Origin: Phytoseiulus persimilis
Taxonomy: Eukaryota > Arthropoda > Arachnida > Mesostigmata > Phytoseiidae
NCBI GenBank assembly: GCA_037576195.1
Contig: JAQZDE010000039.1
Span: forward strand, 93,343 to 157,342
Reading direction: 5' to 3'
Length of the DNA stretch: 64,000 nucleotides
Below the pieces are notes generated by a model that was not told where the DNA came from, did no database searches, and worked only from the letters and a program-made list of their open reading frames with translations. Below are positions 4,831 through 28,626 of this stretch, piece by piece. Within the stretch, counting starts at the first letter, position 1. Every line of letters starts with the position of its first letter. The position numbers were made by a program, and so were the translations under genes.

Positions 4831-7707
4831 CTAATTCTTCTCTTCCTCCTTCTTGCTACTACTATCGTCGCCAGCGCCACTGCTTGACGACCCAGACGTG
4901 GATCTTTCGGCGGCCATCTTCTTGTAGGCTGCCTCAAACAACTTCAACGACTGTTGCTGCAACTCCTGGGTCGCTTCGGTGATGGCCTCGCCGCTAACTT
5001 CGTCCTTCTTTGCGAGCATTTCGCGAACCACGCCAATCTTCTCCTTCAGCTGCTGGCACTCGTCAGCCGGGAGCTGATCTTTGAATTCCTCCATCTTTGC
5101 TTCTGTTTCATGGACAATGCCTTCGGCCTTGTTGACGGCCTCGACAACCTCTTTCTTCTTCTTGTCTTCCTCGGCGAAGCGTTCGGCATTCTTGATCATG
5201 TTCTCGATTTCGTCTTTCGATAGACCTCCGCTTGACTGGATTACGATCTGCTGTTCTTTACCAGTTCCCTTGTCGCGCGCAGACACGTGAACGATTCCGT
5301 TCGCATCGATGTCGAAGGTGACTTCGATCTGAGGCACCCCCCGAGGTGCAGGTGGGATTCCAACCAACGAGAATTCGCCGAGAACTTTATTGTGCTCCGC
5401 CATCTCTCGCTCTCCTTGACAAACCTTGATTTGAACCTGGGTCTGACCATCGGCCGCGGTGGAGAAGACTTGGCTCTTTTTGGTTGGGATAGTGGTGTTC
5501 CGCTGGATCAGCTTGGTCATCACACCTCCAAGGGTCTCGATACCCAACGAGAGTGGTGTCACGTCCAGGAGAAGAACGTCGGTGACGTCACCGGCGAGGA
5601 CACCTCCTTGAATAGCTGCACCCACTGCTACGGCTTCGTCGGGGTTGACGGCCTTAGAGGGCTGTTTCCCGAAAATCTCCTGAACGGTCTCCTGAACCTT
5701 CGGCATCCTGCTCATGCCTCCCACGAGGATGACATCTCCAACATCAGATTTCTTCACTTCGGCATCCTGCATCGCCTTGTTGCACGGACCGACAGTTCGC
5801 TTGATCAGGTCACCAACAAGAGTCTCGAATTTGGACCGACTCAATTTCAAGTTCATGTGCTTTGGTCCAGAAGAATCCATGGTGAGGTACGGGAGGTTGA
5901 TATCAGTCTGCACAGCGGACGAAAGCTCAATTTTAGCTTTCTCCGCAGCCTCCTTCAACCGCTGCATGGCCATGGGGTCTTTGGTGACATCGACTCCTTG
6001 ATCGCGTTTGAACTCCGTCGCCAAGAATGTCACGAGAGTGTTGTCGAAATCTTCGCCGCCAAGGAACGTGTCACCGTTGGTGGACTTCACTTCGAAAACT
6101 CCTTTCTGAATTTCAAGAATGGAAATATCGAAGGTACCGCCTCCCAGATCGTAAACGGCGATGACCTTATCATCCGTCTTGTCCATGCCATACGCGAGAG
6201 CTGCCGCTGTGGGCTCGTTGATAACACGAAGGACGTTCAAGCCCGAAATCTGACCGGCATCCTGTCGAGAGGAATGATTCAAAGGTTAGCGTCAAAATTG
6301 AACAATCGGTCCGCCGATTTTGCGATCGGAGTTCGCGAGAAGACCTCCCTTGGATACGGAATCAAGTGCCGTATACTAGCCTTGGTAGCTTGTCGCTGGG
6401 AATCGTTGAAGTAGGCCGGCACGGTAACGACGGCGTTCTTCACGGGAGTGCCCATATAACTTTCAGCAGTCTCTTTCATTTTCATGAGAACGAAGGCTCC
6501 GATTTGCGAAGGCGAGTACATTTTCCCCTGGGCCTCGACCCATGCATCACCGTTGCTGGCCTGCACGATCTTGTAGGACGATGTTTTCATATCCTTCTTG
6601 ACTTCGGCATCACTGAACTTACGTCCGATGAGACGTTTGGTAGCTGACAGTGTGTTTTGGGCGTTTGTGACTGCTTGACGTTTGGCTGGCATGCCGACCA
6701 AACGCTCCCCGTCGCGGGTGAAGGCGACGACCGATGGGGTTGTTCGAGAACCTTCAGCGTTCTCAATGACCTTCAAAGGATGAATAAACCCACTGTTAGA
6801 TCCATCATTCCGAATTCCTCCTTCCTGAAGAAGATATCACATTCATTTTGACTGACATAGTATCCATTCCAATAAGGGATCGACGCATTACTTTTGGTTG
6901 TTTGCCTTCCATGATGGCGACGCAAGAGTTGGTTGTCCCCAAATCGATTCCTATGACTGCTCCCTTGACCTGGGAATCAGATTTGAATCTCATCCCGCTA
7001 CCGGCCATGCGGTAGGCTGCAGGTAGTCCTTGGAGTCCCATTCCTGAAAATCCGAATCGATCTCAGCATCGGGACGAAAATTCAGGATTTAGCCGGTGAA
7101 TTCTCAAGTTTGCGAGATCAGCTTTCTTCAATCCATGGAACGTTCACGCGGTTGTAAGTGACATTCGAATAATGGTCTCCGTAGCTCTCGCGGGTCCCTG
7201 AGGAGCACGTGTGCTTTCATTGGATGCACCCGGAGAGGCCCATGGAATATACGAGAATTTCGAGCTCAATCATGAAAGTTCTCCATACAGATCCTTCGGA
7301 CTGGCACTGATAGCGATTCCACACTGGAGAACAACCACCGAGCTGTGCCGACGTTCATGTCGTACCAAATCGTACTAATTCGACGATTTCGACTGTCGGC
7401 GTCTCCGCGCGATCTTCAGCGTGTGGATCGAACAGCCGCGGAACAATGCAATAACTCGACAGCACGAGCGAATATGTCGATCATCGCGGGACCGTTTTCC
7501 CAGCTTGAGGAATCCTGATCCTCGATCAATGAAGCCACTTTTGTGCCCGCTCTCCGGGTTAGAGGTTGTATGACGCAACTCCGCGCACCGGTCATTCGAG
7601 AACCTACGATCGTCAAAGAGAGCTGACGCATAATTCTTACCTTTGCTACCGATTGAGTGCCCGGCAGTGGAACCGAGATGGCTCAGAATACTTCCAGCGC
7701 GCAACAT
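4831..7707 (-). CDS. HSPA9: Mitochondrial HSP70 (mortalin / HSPA9 type)
   Basis: ATP-driven chaperone of the mitochondrial matrix; imports and folds proteins and supports Fe-S cluster assembly. Coding exons, minus strand: 7707-7641, 7043-6892, 6770-6381, 6261-4831, giving 679 aa, the same length as human mortalin as I recall it. Exon 1 encodes a targeting-like, acid-free N-terminus rich in Ser, Arg and His ([18 protein letters not shown]). The ATPase domain starts with [10 protein letters not shown] at residues 54-63 and includes DLGGGTFD. The substrate-binding domain follows, with a helical lid and a Ser/Lys/Glu-rich tail. The start at 7707 was chosen because exon 1 (67 nt, donor AAAG|GTAAGA) joins exon 2 in phase and supplies the presequence. 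Intron 3 (6262-6380) must begin with GC (AAG|GCTAGT) to restore the invariant QATK-DAGQ junction. A long antisense ORF at 5287-6414 is a shadow of this gene. Confidence 0.95.
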
Positions 7708-14700: not shown

Positions 14701-16369
14701 GAACAACAAAGAGGGTGAGTCCCAGCATTGGTTACGTGGAGCAACCATCCTTCAAGCTCGTGTAATCGAAACTAACTCCGCCTTTCTGTCTCGACAGATT
14801 CTTCGAATGTTGGGAAAATGTTCAAGACTAGCAAGTCAATTTCGGAGAAGGGCGACAACCTGGTGATCAGTGTCAATTATAAGAAGAAAGCTCTCCAAAA
14901 CATATTCGGGGACGAAACGTCGGATGAGGAGGTGGACCCTCTGCAACAGAAGAAAGACGTTCGGAACGATAAGCCTCCCGAGAAACCTGACAGAACAAGC
15001 CCGGTCAAGAAGAGCCCTGCTCCGAAAGGGCCTCAGACACCGCCCGATAGCAGGAACCAAGACGAATACGACCCCTGTGAGCCGCTTGGAGATTCTCCAT
15101 CAAGCACGCCAACGAATGACGAGCCTGATCAGGTCAGAATATCAAATTCACCCGAAAAAGATTCTCCGGTCGCGGTGACATCATCTCAGGGTAAACCCAC
15201 GGTCGCCGTTCTCCCCATCGTCGATAACAAATCGCCAAAAATCCGAGACAAACGGAAAGTCTCACCGAAGGCTCCACCAGCTCCTCCCCTACCGCCTCCA
15301 CCGAGCAAAGAGAAGCCGCCCTCCCCGCCACCCAAACTAGCACCTCCTCCCGTGCCATCGTTCTTGTTCAATCAACCTCCGACGGTCCAGCCGCAATACA
15401 TCGTCATGAATCCATTCTTGGTCAATCCGTACATGATGCCGATGCAAGCCGCGGCTGCCCCGCTCGTGACCTCGTCAGCGGCTTCAATGTCGCAAGTGTC
15501 TCTATCGTCGACAATAACGACGACGGCTCCGATGACGACGACGGCAACGGTCTCTTCTCGAGAATCTCATGCGACCGGCCCTGTAGAAGGGAGCCCGTAT
15601 TCTCCTGGCGATAGTCCGCTGTTCAACGATCCAATAACGCCACCTACGCCGCTTAGCGCTGAGGACAACGGCGAAGGGTCCTCAAAGCCAGGAGGCGTAT
15701 TTGACCAAATCGCCGCCGGCGTCGTCAAACCAACCAAGAAGAGACAAAAGAAAAAACAGAAGGTGAATCTCGGACGTGTACGGTTCGGATCGACACAAGT
15801 TTCCCCGCCTCGCCCAGTTTCTGATCCGTTTCTGTCCTTCCAGGTCGTGGTCAAAACCGCTGGTCAGCTCGTTGCAGAGTCGAAGGACGGTGATGAGAGC
15901 AATAAGGAGCGCTATGTGAAAATGGACGAAGCCCAGATGAAAATCCTTGATGAACTGCCTTCATCAGCCGTTGAGATGCAGGTCAAGGAGAAGTATCTTC
16001 AGAAACTCCATCGTCAGGAGCGAGTTGTGGAGGAAGTGAAACTGGCATTGAAACCATTCTACAACAAGAAGCAGGTCAGCAAGGATGACTACAAGCTGAT
16101 CATGAAGAAATGTGTGCCCAAGGTAAGGTCCCGATATATTTTGGTGACTTTTCCTTCGACTTGATCCATGCTTCGATCGATCTTAACTCTCACACGTTTC
16201 TCTCACGAGCTCTCATTGCATACTTACTCCACAGATTTGTCATAACAAGAACGGTGAAATTAATCCAGCCAAAATCAAGGCTCTCGTCGAGGGCTATGTC
16301 AAGCGATACCGACATCTGGGTAAGAAACACAAAGCCCAAACAACGGCGAGTGCGGCATCTACTAGTTGA
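11738..16369 (+). CDS. SCAF-like RS-rich pre-mRNA processing protein
   Basis: Probably a nuclear protein linking RNA polymerase II CTD to splicing. Coding exons: 11738-11905, 12174-12375, 12521-13119, 13268-13813, 13901-14714, 14798-16122, 16235-16369; all junctions keep phase, giving 1262 aa. The N-terminal ~500 residues are acidic and Ser/Glu-rich. Exon 5 (residues 506-776) is a long arginine-serine domain ([11 protein letters not shown] type) with Lys-rich blocks. Residues ~900-960 are proline-rich. The last ~90 residues ([19 protein letters not shown], then [14 protein letters not shown] and [11 protein letters not shown]) match the conserved C-terminal domain of SCAF11/SCAF1/PHRF1. No RING or PHD finger is seen, so it is closer to SCAF1 than PHRF1, unless N-terminal exons are missed. 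The start ATG at 11738 follows a likely 5' UTR acceptor. Intron 13814-13900 is 87 nt and stop-free in frame, so retention would extend the RS region. Confidence 0.8.
13901..14714 (+). repeat. Coding RS / SRSP low-complexity repeat
   Basis: Within exon 5 of the SCAF-like gene, codons for Arg-Ser and Ser-Pro recur dozens of times ([17 protein letters not shown]). The repeat also opens long spurious frames on the opposite strand (e.g. 13927-14355). Such domains are phosphorylated by SR protein kinases and drive nuclear-speckle localisation in known SR proteins. Confidence 0.85.
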
Positions 16370-18311: not shown

Positions 18312-21300
18312 CTACTTGTCGGGCTCGTCCATGTTTATATCGCCTCCGATTATGGAGTCCAGAAGCTTGTAGTTCTCAACGTTGTCCCACTTCAGCCCTT
18401 TAGTTCCGTCACAATCGTCCTTCGAATCTTCTTCATCCTTGATCGATAATAACACAGGACTGTTCTCACGTCCGCCAGCTGAAAAATTCATGCGTGCCCG
18501 GGGCAAGCGATTAATAGAATAGCTCTTCTCATTCTCCGGGGGGAAACTAGACTATTGCGCTCTCAGCCATTGATCAGAGAGAAGGCTGAGGAGGAGCTCT
18601 TCGAGCATGCACTACTGACCAGGGAGATCTTCGAATAAGTTCATGGTGCCGGTGCTTTCCACAGGACCTCCCGAAGGAGCCGTGAAACAGTTGAGGTCGC
18701 CGTACTCTTCGAGATGCTCTTCTCCCCCCAGGTGGCTGCCTGCAAATCCGAACACAGTATCATCCGGCGGAAGTTTCATCGTCACTGCGCTTGCAGAACT
18801 CGCCGACACCTTGACGCCCACTGATGACGTTGAATCTGCAGAGACAAAGAACACTGAGAAAGATATCCGGGGAAAGATGCGAGGATTCGCAATGTGCATT
18901 TGGCATTGCGTAGACACATACTCAGGCTAGGATCGTCGTTGAGATGTTTTGTGGCGCCGTTTGTTATATCCATGTCTTCTTCATCTTCCAACGCTCCGAC
19001 GGGAACCGCGGTTTTCGTAGCTGCAGGAGATGTTATGTTCACTTGTACTCTGTGGCCTGCGTTTCTCGTCCACGCTGTGTAAATCTGATTGATTACGGTG
19101 AACATGTTATTGAAGTCCGTCTGATTGCTAACTGCCGCCAGGGTTGCCAACCCATTGGTGATCTCTCGCATTTTCGCCAACTGGAAAGTGACATTCACGA
19201 ATGAAAATCTCTCGGGATGAATCCTAGGTCGTAGAGAGTCAGATAGAGGAGGCAGGATCCGACTCGGTCACCTTGTCGCTGTATTTCATTTCCGAGCCAG
19301 GGCCTTCACTGAGATCGCTCATGATATCGACAGGGAAAGGTTCAGTTCGACGCCACTTGTCCGGGATGAGGCAATCCTGCATGGGTATTGAATGAGCCAT
19401 CGCGACTACAAACGCGTGACTGCAGGGGAGATGATAACTCTGGTGGAATGCGCAATTGCACGAGAAGTTCTTCCCGGGTTGAACTGTCCCCTTGCCCGCG
19501 ACTGAGGATACAAGGTAGGTGGATTCGTTGACGGTTTGGGTCACGGAAAACTTATAAGTCCTGGAATGAATCATATATCATTACTGACCCGTTATGGAGT
19601 CTGCGTTCCGGCGTTTCCCGGCTGTGACCTGGCAGTGGAGGAAGCGGTTCGACAGGATTACCCGGGCTTGCAACGGGCGGCATACGTCCTTGCGACATAT
19701 TTCTTCCCACCGGGCAATGCAGAGCGGTAATAAGCGATCGGACACTGCATAGTTCTCGTGGCGAATAGCGCGCTTAGCGGAGAATACATCTAAAGACCTC
19801 CCAACGCCGGCATACCCGACAGCCTCACACGTGTGCGTGTGTGGTGATCCGAGCGGCACCGGGAAAACATTGTGTGAAAACATAAAGAAGACACTCTTCG
19901 AGTGTTCTTCACGGAATATCACCGCGTTCGGATGTATGCCGACGTTGGATGAAGCATAAATCTGCGTGAATTCCTCTTTGTGCCAACTTTGACTCAGAAC
20001 TGTCGAGTTTAGTCACCGAGGTAAACATTTCCCGTAAAATGTCTCTGAGGCCGTCCGAAACCATGTGATGCATTTCTGTCGAATTCGGCTCCCCGGAGAC
20101 TCCAAGCTCGTGCTCACCATAGTGTTCCATTCTCGCAGGGTGAGCTTCCAGCTGAACAACACAATGGCAGCGACTGAGGCTGCACAGAAGCCACGGATCC
20201 CCGAGGAACAACTCCGACAAATTGGCCGAGTGTTGAAGGACCCAGGAAGGCCTCTGAAGGAGCGCTTTCGAGCTCTATTCACATTGAAAAATCTTGGTAA
20301 GCTACGCAGTCGACGAGCGGCGAGCCAGTGTCCGGAGTGTGTCTATTCAAGAGGATTGAATCCCGAACTTCCTCATTTTGTCACAGAGGGCGGCGTTCCA
20401 TACATCAGCCAAGCTTTCAACGATAAGTCAGCTCTACTCCTTCACGAATTGGCTTACTGCCTGGGACAAACTCAAGACCCGGAGGCGATTCCGATTCTCG
20501 TCAAAGTTCTCGCCGACTCGCAAATGGAAGCGATCGCTCGACATGAAGCGGGAGAAGCGCTAGGAGCCATAGGAGTACTCCACCAGAAGGCTAGATCGGT
20601 TCTCGAGAGCCACAAGAACGACTCGAATCCAGTCATCGCTGAAACTTGCCAATTGGCCTTGCGGCGGATAGAATTCATCCACAGTGCGGGGTACAAGGAG
20701 GCCAATGTGAAATGCTCAGGTTACGGTTCTATAGACCCAACACCGCCGTTTGAGGAACACAGCAAGAGTGTCGAAGAATTGCGAGAGATCCTGATAGACC
20801 CGAAGAAGCCACTGTGGGAGAGGTAAGACGATAATTTCCGTTCGGGTTCTGGAAACGAGCTCCGATCCAAGAAGGTTCAACGTCTATGCGTTTAATGCCA
20901 TCAACGTCTGATGTTGTCGTTTCCAGATATCGAGCCATGTTCTCTCTGAGGAACCTCGGTTCACCCGAAGCCATCAAAATACTCGGTGAAGCCTTATTTT
21001 GTCCATCGTCGGCCCTGTTTCGCCACGAAGTCGCGTTCGTTTTCGGTCAACTCCAGTCGGAGGAGTCGATTCCATATCTGACGAAGTGTCTTGAGAACAC
21101 TCAAGAATTGGGCATGGTACGGCACGAATGCGCAGAAGCGCTTGGCAGCATCGCGACTGATGACTGCAAGAAGCTGTTGAGAAAGTACCTGGATGATCCC
21201 GAGAATGTCGTTCGAGAGAGTTGCGAAGTTGCATTGGACATGTGCGAGTACGAGAACTCGGCCGAGTTCCAATATGCTGACACTTTGTCAAAAGTGCGCC

Positions 21301-24300
21301 TGGTTCACAATAAGTGTCGCGACGGTGTGTATCCGGGTACGCGAGTCAATCGCGCAGCAGTGCCTCTGGAGAAAGTTCCTTGGGATGTGGATTTCACTGA
21401 ATATCAGCCCACTGAATACGAGGACTCGAAAGTTTTGGAAGATAAGCCCTGGGCGGATGCCAAAATCACCGGAAGCGGCTCGGGGCTGAAGTTCAACGGA
21501 GTCGATGGCGGAGTGAACCGAATATCCTATGAAGGAGAATACAAGGTTGTGAACGGTCGTCCCCTGAATCCCCAGGGACGAACGGGGATCACTGGAAGAG
21601 GTCGACTTGGGCGTTACGGGCCGAACCATGCGGCGGATCCAATCGTGACTCGTTGGCAACGAGACGCCCAAGGGAAGCAAGTATTCAACGAAATCACCCT
21701 GATGCCAGTCCTGGAATTTGTGGCGATTCAACGCCGGGATAACGGCCAATGGGCGATTCCTGGGGGGATGGTCGACCCAGGCGAGAACGTTAACTCGACT
21801 CTCAAGAGAGAATTCCTGGAGGAAGCGATGAACTCTGACAGCGGAGTATCGGAAGCTCAGAGGAAACTCGTGGAGTCATTCTTTGGAGGAGGTCAGCCCA
21901 TTCACAAGGGCTACGTCGACGACCCCCGGAATACGGACAATGCGTGGATGGAAACAGTAGCAGTGAACTATCACGACGAGAAAGGTGATATCGTGGGAGG
22001 TATGGAGTTGTCGGCTGGGTCAGATGCAGGTAAAGTCTGCTGGATGCCAATGACCCAAGAACTGGACCTCTACGCGAATCACGCATCATTCCTCGAAAAA
22101 GTCGCTGAGAAGCTCGGGGCTCATTGGTGAAGTCATCAGTCGGACATTTCTCTGTTTGTGTCTTCCTTTAACTCCATCAATGAGGGAAATAAAGTTCGCT
22201 CTCAAGGGGAATAACGTTTGCATTTCTAGTGACGACTTCTGATGCAGATGAAGAAGGCACCTCGGTGCGAAGAAATGAAGCTCCGAGAAATGAAGCTGTC
22301 TAGAACGGTAAGCTGGAAGTGAGCCACATGTTTAAGAGTGGTCTGACAGGCACTCACCGCGAAATCCGAACTTGGGTCAGAACGTGCAAAGCGGCGTAAT
22401 CGCAGCATAGAGAGATGAGCCTGGCTTCGTGTTCGACCATTTTCATGTGGTACTCCCGGATGTCACACAATAACCGATCTGTGTTCGTTTGTTCGATTAT
22501 ACCTGGAGAGTAAACGTCAAATGTCATAAGGAAGATACGGGAGCTGCATCGCCCATTGATGGGTTGATCGCACGGGAGATTCCGGTTAATAGTGGTCACG
22601 CCCTCAATGAAACGTAATGAACTCACCAGTTACGGCGTAAACCAGATTACATAGAGCGTCAGACAAAGTCTGCGATCTCTCACAGACGAGTGACATGAAC
22701 TGCGAGAGGACCTCGACGCGGTCATTCATTCCATTCGCGAACGGTACAACGCCTTCTCTCTGGAATACAGGGCATCGTTTCGGTTGTTGTGTCTTGAGCG
22801 CTCAAATCCCTCACACTGTCGCTGAGCTCAAGATCTTGGTATATTCATCAACTCACTCTGAATCCAGCCCACATTTCTCTCGCGGGATGCCATTGGGTGT
22901 TGAAGTATTTGGCGAAGCGCGTTTCGATACCGTCGAGTTTCTTCAGGTGTTCGTTGTAGTTTTTTTCTTGCAAGCCTGAGAACATGCCTCGCAGCGTCTT
23001 GCAGATTCTCTCTTGAATCGGTAACGAGAGATCGATTCTGGTCATTTCTTTGAGCATAGATCGAACCACATGGAAATGACAGTAGAGTACACAACGGGCT
23101 CCTTCGAACAATGAAGCGAGTTGATTCTTAAGACGACGATGTTGTTCCCGATCTAGGAGTATGCAGCGCACGTTTCGCGCAGCCGGTTGATTGTGTTGGA
23201 TGAAGACGTTCAGCAGCAGACCTTGATGAGGATGAAAGCGTTCGGCAAAAGATCAGTTTAGACGAAGTGTTAGTAATTCGCTGAACTACTACTATCGAGA
23301 AGGCAGAATGGCAGTACGAGGGATCTGCGAAAATCTTACCAGCCATCAGGCGGATCGGCTTCATAAGGATGGCGAACGCGAAAGGCCCTCCGAGGCCTTG
23401 GGCGTCATGCCCCGAGAAGGAAACGAGGGAATACTCAGGATTCATGGCGAAGTGGTACCCCGCGTCGAACAACAGGATTTCGGGATATAGAGCAAACTTT
23501 CTCTTCATGTGTCCTGTTTGGAAAAACACTGCAACCAGTTCCGACTGGTTGTTCACAATTATTGAGGAACGACTCTCGAGGTCGCATTCCTCCAGCTTCT
23601 GGAGCTCCTGGAAAAGCATAAGGAGATGGATCCGTATTATTTCTGAAGAAGACACCATACTCCACAACTAAAGTGTTCATCCTTCAGGGCTCGTGTAACG
23701 AACTCTTTAGGTCTGTCAACGACCAACATCCGGAACGGGAAGTTACCTGAAGAAGGACTTCAACAGGGGCAGCGTCCCCCAATAGAGTCAGCTTTTCAGG
23801 AAGATCGACTATTCCTTTCAAAGTCAGCGCTCGATACTCCTCTTGAGGACCGATGTCTTCCTCTGCATCGGGTTCCTCGTCCCCGATACCCATTCCAAGG
23901 CCCATGCCCGGCACTGGCGAAGGGTGTGCGCCTGACTCATCGAGATCTTCAGCGTCAAGTAAATTGACTCCAATCGTCTCGGTTTCCACAACGTCTGGGA
24001 CTCCGCTGCAAATTAGTCATGGACTTCAGACTCATCCGATTCGGTTCACAGAGAGGGGGTGGACGATGAGGTTAGTTACGGAATCGCGGATAGTAGCCGG
24101 CAGTATCACGTTCATGCGTCGAATTTCCAAACTCACTCGAGAGAGTCTTCGACGACTTCATCCTGTATGACGCTGGCAGGAGCGATAGGAGTGCTCGGTT
24201 GCTGAATGTCGGGTGTTCGTTCTGTGTGATCATGTACGGGATCGAGTTTGAGCACAATAATGCAGTCAACTTTTCTTTCGTATTTAACAACAACTGTAGC

Positions 24301-26659: not shown

Positions 26660-28626
26660 CTATGAATGTAGTGGCACCAGGACGGCGCGGAAACCGTCGG
26701 GAACCCGCACGTAGCGCATCCGAAGGTCTGGGAAGAGACTGCCGCCTGGGAATCTGTATCGACTTTCCAAATCGCCGGCCGTCGGATAGCGAAGAGGATT
26801 CAGGGGACGTGCTACGTCCGAGGGACTCAACGGAAGTCCAGTCGGAGTAATTGCTAACGGGCTCGGTACACCGTGGGCCAAACCACCCGTAGGTGTGTGC
26901 ACAGGAATCGACGACGGCTGAAGGCTCGATGGAGGTACTCCGGGCCCGGACGAACGCTCGGGATAGGGTAGAGCCGCCGAAGAGCGGAAAATTGCACCCG
27001 CGGTATTCTGGTTGTCGGTTCCGGGCTCGTTGGTGAGCACTTCTGCGCGGAAACCGTTGTGATCGGCGATATAGTTAACACGTCGAACATGACCATCTGG
27101 TTGACGGATTGTGTAGTAACCAACACGACGTCCCGAGGCGTCAGCAACTTCAGAACGAGAATGCGCACCACCGGCCTCAGTTGGCGAAACATAGGCGAAG
27201 CTGAAGGGACGCGGGACTCTGTGTTCTTCATCGCGAGGCACAGGCGGCAGAAGCGTGTGAAGTCGAGTGGCAAAAGATACGTCTATGGGGAGGAGTCCAG
27301 AGCGATCTCGGAAACCTGAGTATCCATGTCGGTAGAGCAGATGGGCGTTACGGTCGTCGACATAACCGGAAGATTTCACCTCGTCTGTGCGCCTGCTAAT
27401 CTCATCTGGCGGGAGCCTACCACGGGTATCCTGGATTGGGGACTCCTTTGCGATTCCCAGAGAGAGAGCGGGCGGAGTAGTCATCGGTTGCGAGAATGGT
27501 GAGGTCGTTGTCGAATCAACATCTCCACCAAGTGAGGCGGATTGAGCCGAGGTTGGCGTCGCGTCAGTGAACGTTGTTGAAGATTGCACCGAAGACAAGC
27601 CCGGATCGAAGTCGGAGATGGAAGGTCCTCCGAAAAGGGACGACGAAGAGGACCCTGATGATTTATCCAAGGGTGAGGAGCTCGATTCAGTCCTTCGACC
27701 TGGAAATTTCCAAACGCATTATTGTTCATCCTTGGAGCGCCTTCGCAGGGCATGCTCCGAAACGTGACTCGAGCCGTAGGCAGCTGACTGCTAGGTAGTC
27801 GCAGACTCACGCAGCGGTTTTTCTCCGAATTCTTGCTGGATCAAGCTCAGGGGACTGTCGTCCTTTTCATCGTCCTCAAGGTCGTTTTGAGCATAGGCAT
27901 AAGCCGCTACGAGAAGCAGCGGGAGGATCCTGGAAGTTAAAGTCGAACTGAGCCGTCTTGCTAGAACCACTCACGCCCACAGTCTCCGGTGTCAACTTCG
28001 GGACAGACACGGATCGGTTAGCGCACTGAACGGTTCAGGGGAATGGGAAAAAGCTCGCATTCACGAGCTCATCAGCTTAGTTCTCTCGTCTCAACATACT
28101 GGTGAAATGACTGCATCAGAGAGACTGCGAAGCAAACGCTCGTCACGGCGGTCGAGGCTGAAATGAGCGCTCAATTCCGAGAGGTTTCTCTTTCTGAACC
28201 TCAGAGAATAGATTCTCTCGACTGGAACGCGTACCTATTACCGCAGCTGCCGCTGCAGCGGTAGTAGTGACGCCGGGCGAAATCTCCGCTTGGACTTCCC
28301 CATCGCATCTTCGCAGAATGAATGTCGTTCCACGGAAAACTCACTAACGTGCGCCACTATAATCAGCCGGCCGTTCCCCACATAATTGCTCCGTAACTGC
28401 GCGCCCGATTGTGCGTGAAAGTGTTAGGCTTGACCAATCATACCGAATCGAAGGGAAAATTCGAAGCGTGTCGAACCACTTGGTTTTCGATTGGGGACGG
28501 GTGAAATCTTGCTCACGACTAAAAACCGGGACCGAGCCATAGGCGACTAGCGACGACTGGGAGTGTATCCAGGAGGGTACCGCACGGTTGCAACTGTCAC
28601 TCAGAGAGCACTTACAAGAACTTCAT
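26660..28626 (-). CDS. Cuticle protein with Rebers-Riddiford chitin-binding domain
   Basis: Secreted structural protein of the exoskeleton. Three coding exons, minus strand: 28626-28616 (only 11 nt, ATGAAGTTCTT), 27929-27811 and 27699-26660; phases agree and give 389 aa. Exons 1-2 encode a signal peptide, MKFLILPLLLVAAYAYA, followed by an acidic segment. Exon 3 begins with a Ser/Thr/Pro-rich region. The chitin-binding core lies around residues 200-270 and shows the expected pattern: RPFSFAYVSP, then GYYTIRQPDG, RRVNYIADHNGF and AEVLTNEPGT. The NYIADHNGFRAEV.TNEPGT form is the one I associate with mite and tick cuticle proteins. A Pro-rich tail follows. A TATA box lies about 75 nt upstream of the start. 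The very short first coding exon is common in arthropod cuticle genes and is supported by the intact signal peptide it creates. Confidence 0.88.

Follow-up and report, generated by a model that had tools for sequence, protein, structure and literature searches.

Does a single gene encode, in one protein, both a deoxyhypusine hydroxylase (DOHH) and a NUDT9-type ADP-ribose (adenosine diphosphate ribose) pyrophosphatase? The question is raised by a plus-strand locus at positions 20164-22130 of a stretch of 64,000 bases, here called the window, which forms the end of contig C39 (157,342 bases) in an animal assembly of 181 Mb and 127 contigs, probably that of an arthropod. A previous reading of the sequence alone had proposed that the two enzymes are fused in frame at this locus. 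The analysis presented here points to a true gene fusion that would give rise to one bifunctional protein and would have taken the place of independent DOHH and NUDT9 genes, an explanation to which a probability of about 0.82 is assigned. As far as the assembly goes the fusion is real, and most likely it is real as a gene too.

A single open frame across two enzymes

The gene structure was established with a script that, within set ranges, paired donor sites (GT) with acceptor sites (AG) near the recognizable boundaries. Only one combination within those ranges gives an open frame, which consists of three exons and specifies 590 amino acids, for an estimated mass of some 65 kDa. Exon 1 (20164-20296) opens with an ATG whose flanking bases (ACAATGG, with A at position -3 and G at +4) form a favourable Kozak context and is followed by a GT..AG intron of 90 bp (20297-20386). 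Exon 2 (20387-20822) encodes the N-terminal half of the hydroxylase, and a second GT..AG intron of 104 bp (20823-20926) leads to exon 3 (20927-22130). This last exon accommodates the C-terminal half of DOHH (residues 191-310, 20928-21287), the junction, the entire NUDT9 half and the stop codon. The coordinates put forward in the sequence-only reading proved correct; that reading had named the last exon alone, and the two introns are added here.

The junction between the two enzymes lies at 21287/21288, inside exon 3, which stays open from 20928 through 400 codons to the stop at 22128-22130. When the bases of these 400 codons were shuffled, none of the 2000 shuffles (0/2000) was free of stops. 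The linker is short: 11 residues (306-316, 21273-21305) separate the last residue aligned to the DOHH structure 4d4z (residue 305) from the first one aligned to the NUDT9 structure 1q33 (residue 317), both of these Protein Data Bank (PDB) chains being human. Just 3' of the fused stop, at 22188-22193, stands an AATAAA polyadenylation signal. Neither AATAAA nor ATTAAA, the two variants scanned, occurs anywhere else on the plus strand between 20100 and 23000. In-frame ATG codons are found in exon 3 at residues 194, 253 and 295, all within DOHH, and the next is at residue 449, deep in the NUDT9 half; as there is none between residues 295 and 449, the NUDT9 half is devoid of a start codon of its own. 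The GC (guanine plus cytosine) content at third codon positions is 0.574 in the DOHH half and 0.575 in the NUDT9 half, and therefore neither half looks recently foreign. The location of the NUDT9 half within a single exon would fit a retrocopy that became joined to DOHH. One open exon across the junction, a single splice solution and the full-length alignment of both halves bear out the in-frame fusion that had been proposed.

Two complete enzymes

Judged by alignment and motifs, residues 1-310 are a predicted complete deoxyhypusine hydroxylase. Residues 12-305 align to residues 7-294 of the 294-residue chain 4d4z with an expectation value (E) of 6.3e-90, and 160 of the 296 alignment columns are identical, gaps counted. 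Pfam places HEAT_PBS and HEAT_2 above cut-off, followed by one Nudix domain, and only HEAT-type and Nudix families are recorded in the protein; the HEAT-type assignment is based on Pfam together with the alignment to 4d4z over residues 12-305. All four His-Glu pairs that DOHH requires for its diiron site are present. Two of them, H64-E65 (20443-20448) and H97-E98 (20542-20547), are encoded by exon 2, and the other two, H223-E224 (21024-21029) and H256-E257 (21123-21128), by exon 3. The spacing of 33 residues within each half of DOHH is the same as that of the human pairs H56/H89 and H207/H240, which are given in PMC9117371. Deoxyhypusine synthase, the preceding enzyme in the pathway, is encoded on contig C2.

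Residues 311-590 (21288-22127) are, on the same kind of evidence, a predicted complete NUDT9-type ADP-ribose hydrolase. Residues 7-280 of this 280-residue half align to 1q33 with an E of 4.3e-98 and one gap of four, 152 of the 278 alignment columns being identical, gaps counted. A Pfam NUDIX domain lies above cut-off, and NCBIfam returned matches for the exon-3 product, as for six other Nudix frames, only below its curated cut-offs. The Nudix box, 20 residues long, begins at residue 470 (21765-21824) and in a motif check proved to be a complete GX5EX7REUXEE, with REFLEE in place of the REFGEE of NUDT9. Mutants of this REFGEE sequence are described as inactive in PMC6461439. The intactness of the catalytic residues of both families, as asserted in the sequence-only reading, is confirmed by the four His-Glu pairs and the complete Nudix box.

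The protein envisaged would combine two reactions. Its N-terminal half would hydroxylate deoxyhypusine on eIF5A at a diiron centre, and its C-terminal half would hydrolyse free ADP-ribose. Each half would keep its own catalytic site on either side of a joint of approximately 11 residues; the activities would probably be independent, and both would be made one-to-one from a single gene.

Other copies in the genome

Whole-assembly searches were run in six frames, exon by exon, and the best candidates only were scored. No second DOHH was found in the assembly: the search returned the fusion gene only, twice, corresponding to the two DOHH halves, and when E values up to 10 were admitted there was one added match (E 2.15), which contains an internal stop. 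Likewise, no other free NUDT9 was found in the assembly, where a single weak match on C1 belongs to the tail of a TRPM/TRPS-family gene. Because no free NUDT9 was detected and the Nudix box of the C1 copy is degraded, the fusion probably encodes the sole active NUDT9-type enzyme of the genome. Separate intact DOHH and NUDT9 genes elsewhere, which the sequence-only reading had named, together with a lack of reads across the junction, as grounds for abandoning the fusion, did not emerge from the genome search. The case for single-copy status is strong, not absolute. With the separate genes replaced by the fusion, both functions would rest on one transcript.

A search of the genome for Nudix domains gave at least ten matches, one of which is the fusion (L007). 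Comparison with the PDB covered five of the nine non-fusion matches and found loci that are DCP2-like (L001), MTH1/NUDT1-like (L002), similar to 3dup (L003), DIPP1-like (L006) and NUDT18-like (L008). The likeness of L004 and L005 to L003 is one of reading frame and of weak NCBIfam matches only, and the other two matches lie at C2:23051563 and C1:44873709. Three Nudix frames that look alike, 322-354 residues long, are situated at C2:17451003-17453528 and C2:31511118-31511492; one of them is L003, whose likeness to 3dup has an E of 1.2e-34. The neighbouring placement of two of these three frames suggests tandem duplication.

The TRPM/TRPS-family gene with a NUDT9-H tail spans C1:37541661-37548100 (L012, L026, L027), and its tail was found in the NUDT9 search, not in the Nudix search. 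SLOG-in-TRPM was recognized in two upstream frames and a TRPM2-like domain in two, in one above and in one below cut-off. Six of the ten frames of this gene that were scanned, tail frames included, show no Pfam family, and a pore domain was not identified among them. Reading frame and alignment both place KFFRSS where REUXEE is expected. Invertebrate TRPM2 Nudix boxes are described as canonical in PMC6461439, but the C1 gene with its degraded box may belong to another TRPM/TRPS clade than TRPM2. If the animal is an arachnid, the gene is probably TRPS or TRPM-gamma, because these are the genes that PMC13143021 reports in arachnids; the same source describes arthropods as being without TRPM-beta.

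Start site, localization and possible separate products

DOHH is a cytosolic enzyme. NUDT9 is described as mitochondrial in PMC6461439, and whether the fused NUDT9 activity has left that organelle depends on where the 5' end of the gene actually lies. The predicted N-terminus, of which 16 residues were inspected by eye, displays no obvious presequence. If the predicted start is the sole one, NUDT9 activity would be moved to the cytosol; an upstream start or a 5' exon is possible.

A candidate mitochondrial leader was considered separately. An in-frame ATG at 20068 adds a basic extension of 32 codons (20068-20163), with a charge of +4 and one acidic residue. As a targeting sequence this extension is unsupported, for controls score as well: 373 of 2780 match it on charge, a number that falls to 253 once helical moment is added, where the controls are open ATG segments from the window, from ten C39 stretches and from ten C1-C4 stretches, include the tested segment itself and draw on one C39 stretch that overlaps the window. 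A candidate splice acceptor, noted by eye near 20139, could remove the extension.

The fused gene might in addition yield separate products, an outcome that is rather unlikely. A protein with DOHH only could arise through early polyadenylation, one with NUDT9 only through an internal promoter, an alternative 5' exon or an internal start, and separate proteins could also result from cleavage of the fused one. Such products would restore the hydroxylase to the cytosol and NUDT9 to the mitochondrion, and the in-frame ATG at 21240, which lies 16 codons ahead of the NUDT9 half, could serve a separate NUDT9 product. However, the stretch that begins at this ATG is acidic and by eye unlike a mitochondrial presequence, no further in-frame ATG is available at residues 296-448, and the two polyadenylation variants scanned are absent from the interior of the gene.

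Possible coupling of the two activities

A more far-reaching version of the fusion hypothesis holds that the protein is an obligate bifunctional enzyme. The animal's only DOHH and its only NUDT9-type ADP-ribose hydrolase would then be parts of one protein, ADP-ribose (as a sign of nicotinamide adenine dinucleotide, NAD, stress) and eIF5A hypusination (as a reflection of iron and oxygen status) would be physically coupled, and dual targeting to cytosol and mitochondria would be possible. This extension is unlikely. Were the fusion obligate, hypusination and ADP-ribose clearance would be tied to one gene and probably to one place in the cell, and both the need of NUDT9 for a mitochondrial location and the effect of ADP-ribose on hypusination would become directly testable.

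Functional regulation is a distinctly doubtful explanation of the join. It would have the binding or turnover of ADP-ribose control hypusination, or iron and oxygen status control the clearance of ADP-ribose. A precedent is provided by the NUDT9 module on the TRPM2 channel, which PMC6461439 describes as gated by ADP-ribose, and the short linker could permit contact between the halves. Yet no sequence feature beyond the join itself favours regulation. According to PMC9117371, NAD serves deoxyhypusine synthase as a redox cofactor in the course of that enzyme's cycle. The synthase is therefore not an obvious supplier of ADP-ribose, which leaves the metabolic link weak and a metabolic rationale for the join hard to see. 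Furthermore, the currents of the nvTRPM2 channel are reported to be unchanged when ADP-ribose hydrolysis is disrupted (PMC6461439). Of the interpretation offered by the sequence-only reading, the fusion and the intact residues stand, backed by the lack of second copies in the assembly search; that ADP-ribose and hypusination are linked by regulation is speculative.

Contig and assembly

Several points weigh against a genuine single-copy fusion. The gene lies on an unplaced contig of only 157 kb, whereas contigs C1-C4 measure 28-55 Mb, and a heavily split second gene could escape a search conducted exon by exon. The exon-3 protein gave 13 pattern matches in prokaryotic genomes and 1 in viral contigs, none of which was confirmed. 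A structure prediction for exon 3, made without relatives, reached a mean predicted local distance difference test score of 40.7 and a predicted template modelling score of 0.31 and was not used.

The small size of C39 is compatible with an origin in another animal or with an alternative haplotype, in which case the fusion would fall outside the single-copy set of the genome. This possibility is very slight. The GC content of ten 10-kb stretches of C39 (0.498-0.536) lies within that of ten stretches of C1-C4 (0.478-0.553), and in tetranucleotide closeness to the chromosome mean the C39 stretches (0.889-0.958) equal or surpass the chromosome stretches (0.725-0.936), although composition alone cannot tell apart the contig of a close relative. 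A haplotig or foreign contig would be expected to have counterparts on the chromosomes. No second copy of DOHH, of NUDT9 or of a SCAF11-like frame (window 14776-16161, plus strand; 462 residues, with a C-terminal match just above cut-off) was found on other contigs, and a 1.3-kb flank on C39 has no second DNA match in the genome in a search that skips very common words. The lack of counterparts for the parts tested speaks against such a contig.

Least credible of all, the unplaced contig notwithstanding, is a misassembly or collapsed stretch that joined two genes, for it must have brought together two complete domains in frame with some 11 residues between the regions of similarity, at a junction without room for an untranslated region, promoter or intron, leaving the NUDT9 half stripped of its own start and no separate copies to be found elsewhere in the assembly.

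Neighbouring genes

The fusion gene is flanked by minus-strand frames at 22851-23667 and 19242-19577. A ZSWIM RNaseH-like domain and DUF5575_C are recognized on one side and a SWIM zinc finger on the other, the latter below cut-off (E 0.038). Possibly the fusion gene lies inside an intron of an opposite-strand SWIM transposase-like gene.

Elsewhere in the window, an HSP70 gene occupies 4834-6836 on the minus strand and is split between two neighbouring frames, with E values of 3e-194 and 9.8e-58. One frame covers 4834-6285, and the switch near 6282-6285 may reflect an intron or a sequence error. A cuticle-protein chitin-binding domain (PF00379), in keeping with an arthropod, is present in a minus-strand frame at 26663-27718. 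Rfam at gathering thresholds gave no match in the window, and a tandem-repeat scan of the window found none.

Comparison with known systems

No DOHH-NUDT9 fusion turned up in a search of an open-access paper library, and an unremarked entry in a protein database may well exist. This new combination of two known enzymes would probably come as a surprise to those who study hypusination or ADP-ribose metabolism. The DOHH half is akin to 4d4z in its near-full-length alignment and in its four His-Glu pairs placed 33 residues apart in each half. The known enzyme stops near the end of this alignment, whereas the fusion frame runs on for 280 residues. In the case of 1q33, the catalytic protein is covered as far as its C-terminal AHW and the Nudix box is intact; the NUDT9 half of the fusion differs in having neither its own start codon nor an evident leader and in sitting behind DOHH.

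A parallel in architecture is provided by TRPM-family channels, in which PMC6461439 describes the NUDT9 module as a C-terminal fusion and ADP-ribose as the ligand that gates TRPM2. In TRPM2-type channels, as in the fusion, the module forms the C-terminal part of a protein to which it is otherwise unrelated, and the similarity sets in at a near-identical point, the match between the NUDT9 half and PDB 6co7 beginning at residue 3 of the former. The partners are different. TRPM2-type chanzymes are recognized by a channel module ahead of the NUDT9 domain, whereas the fusion carries in that position DOHH, a hydroxylase that acts in translation control with high specificity. To our knowledge, NUDT9 fusions have otherwise been those of TRPM-family channels, and the DOHH fusion would add a second kind.

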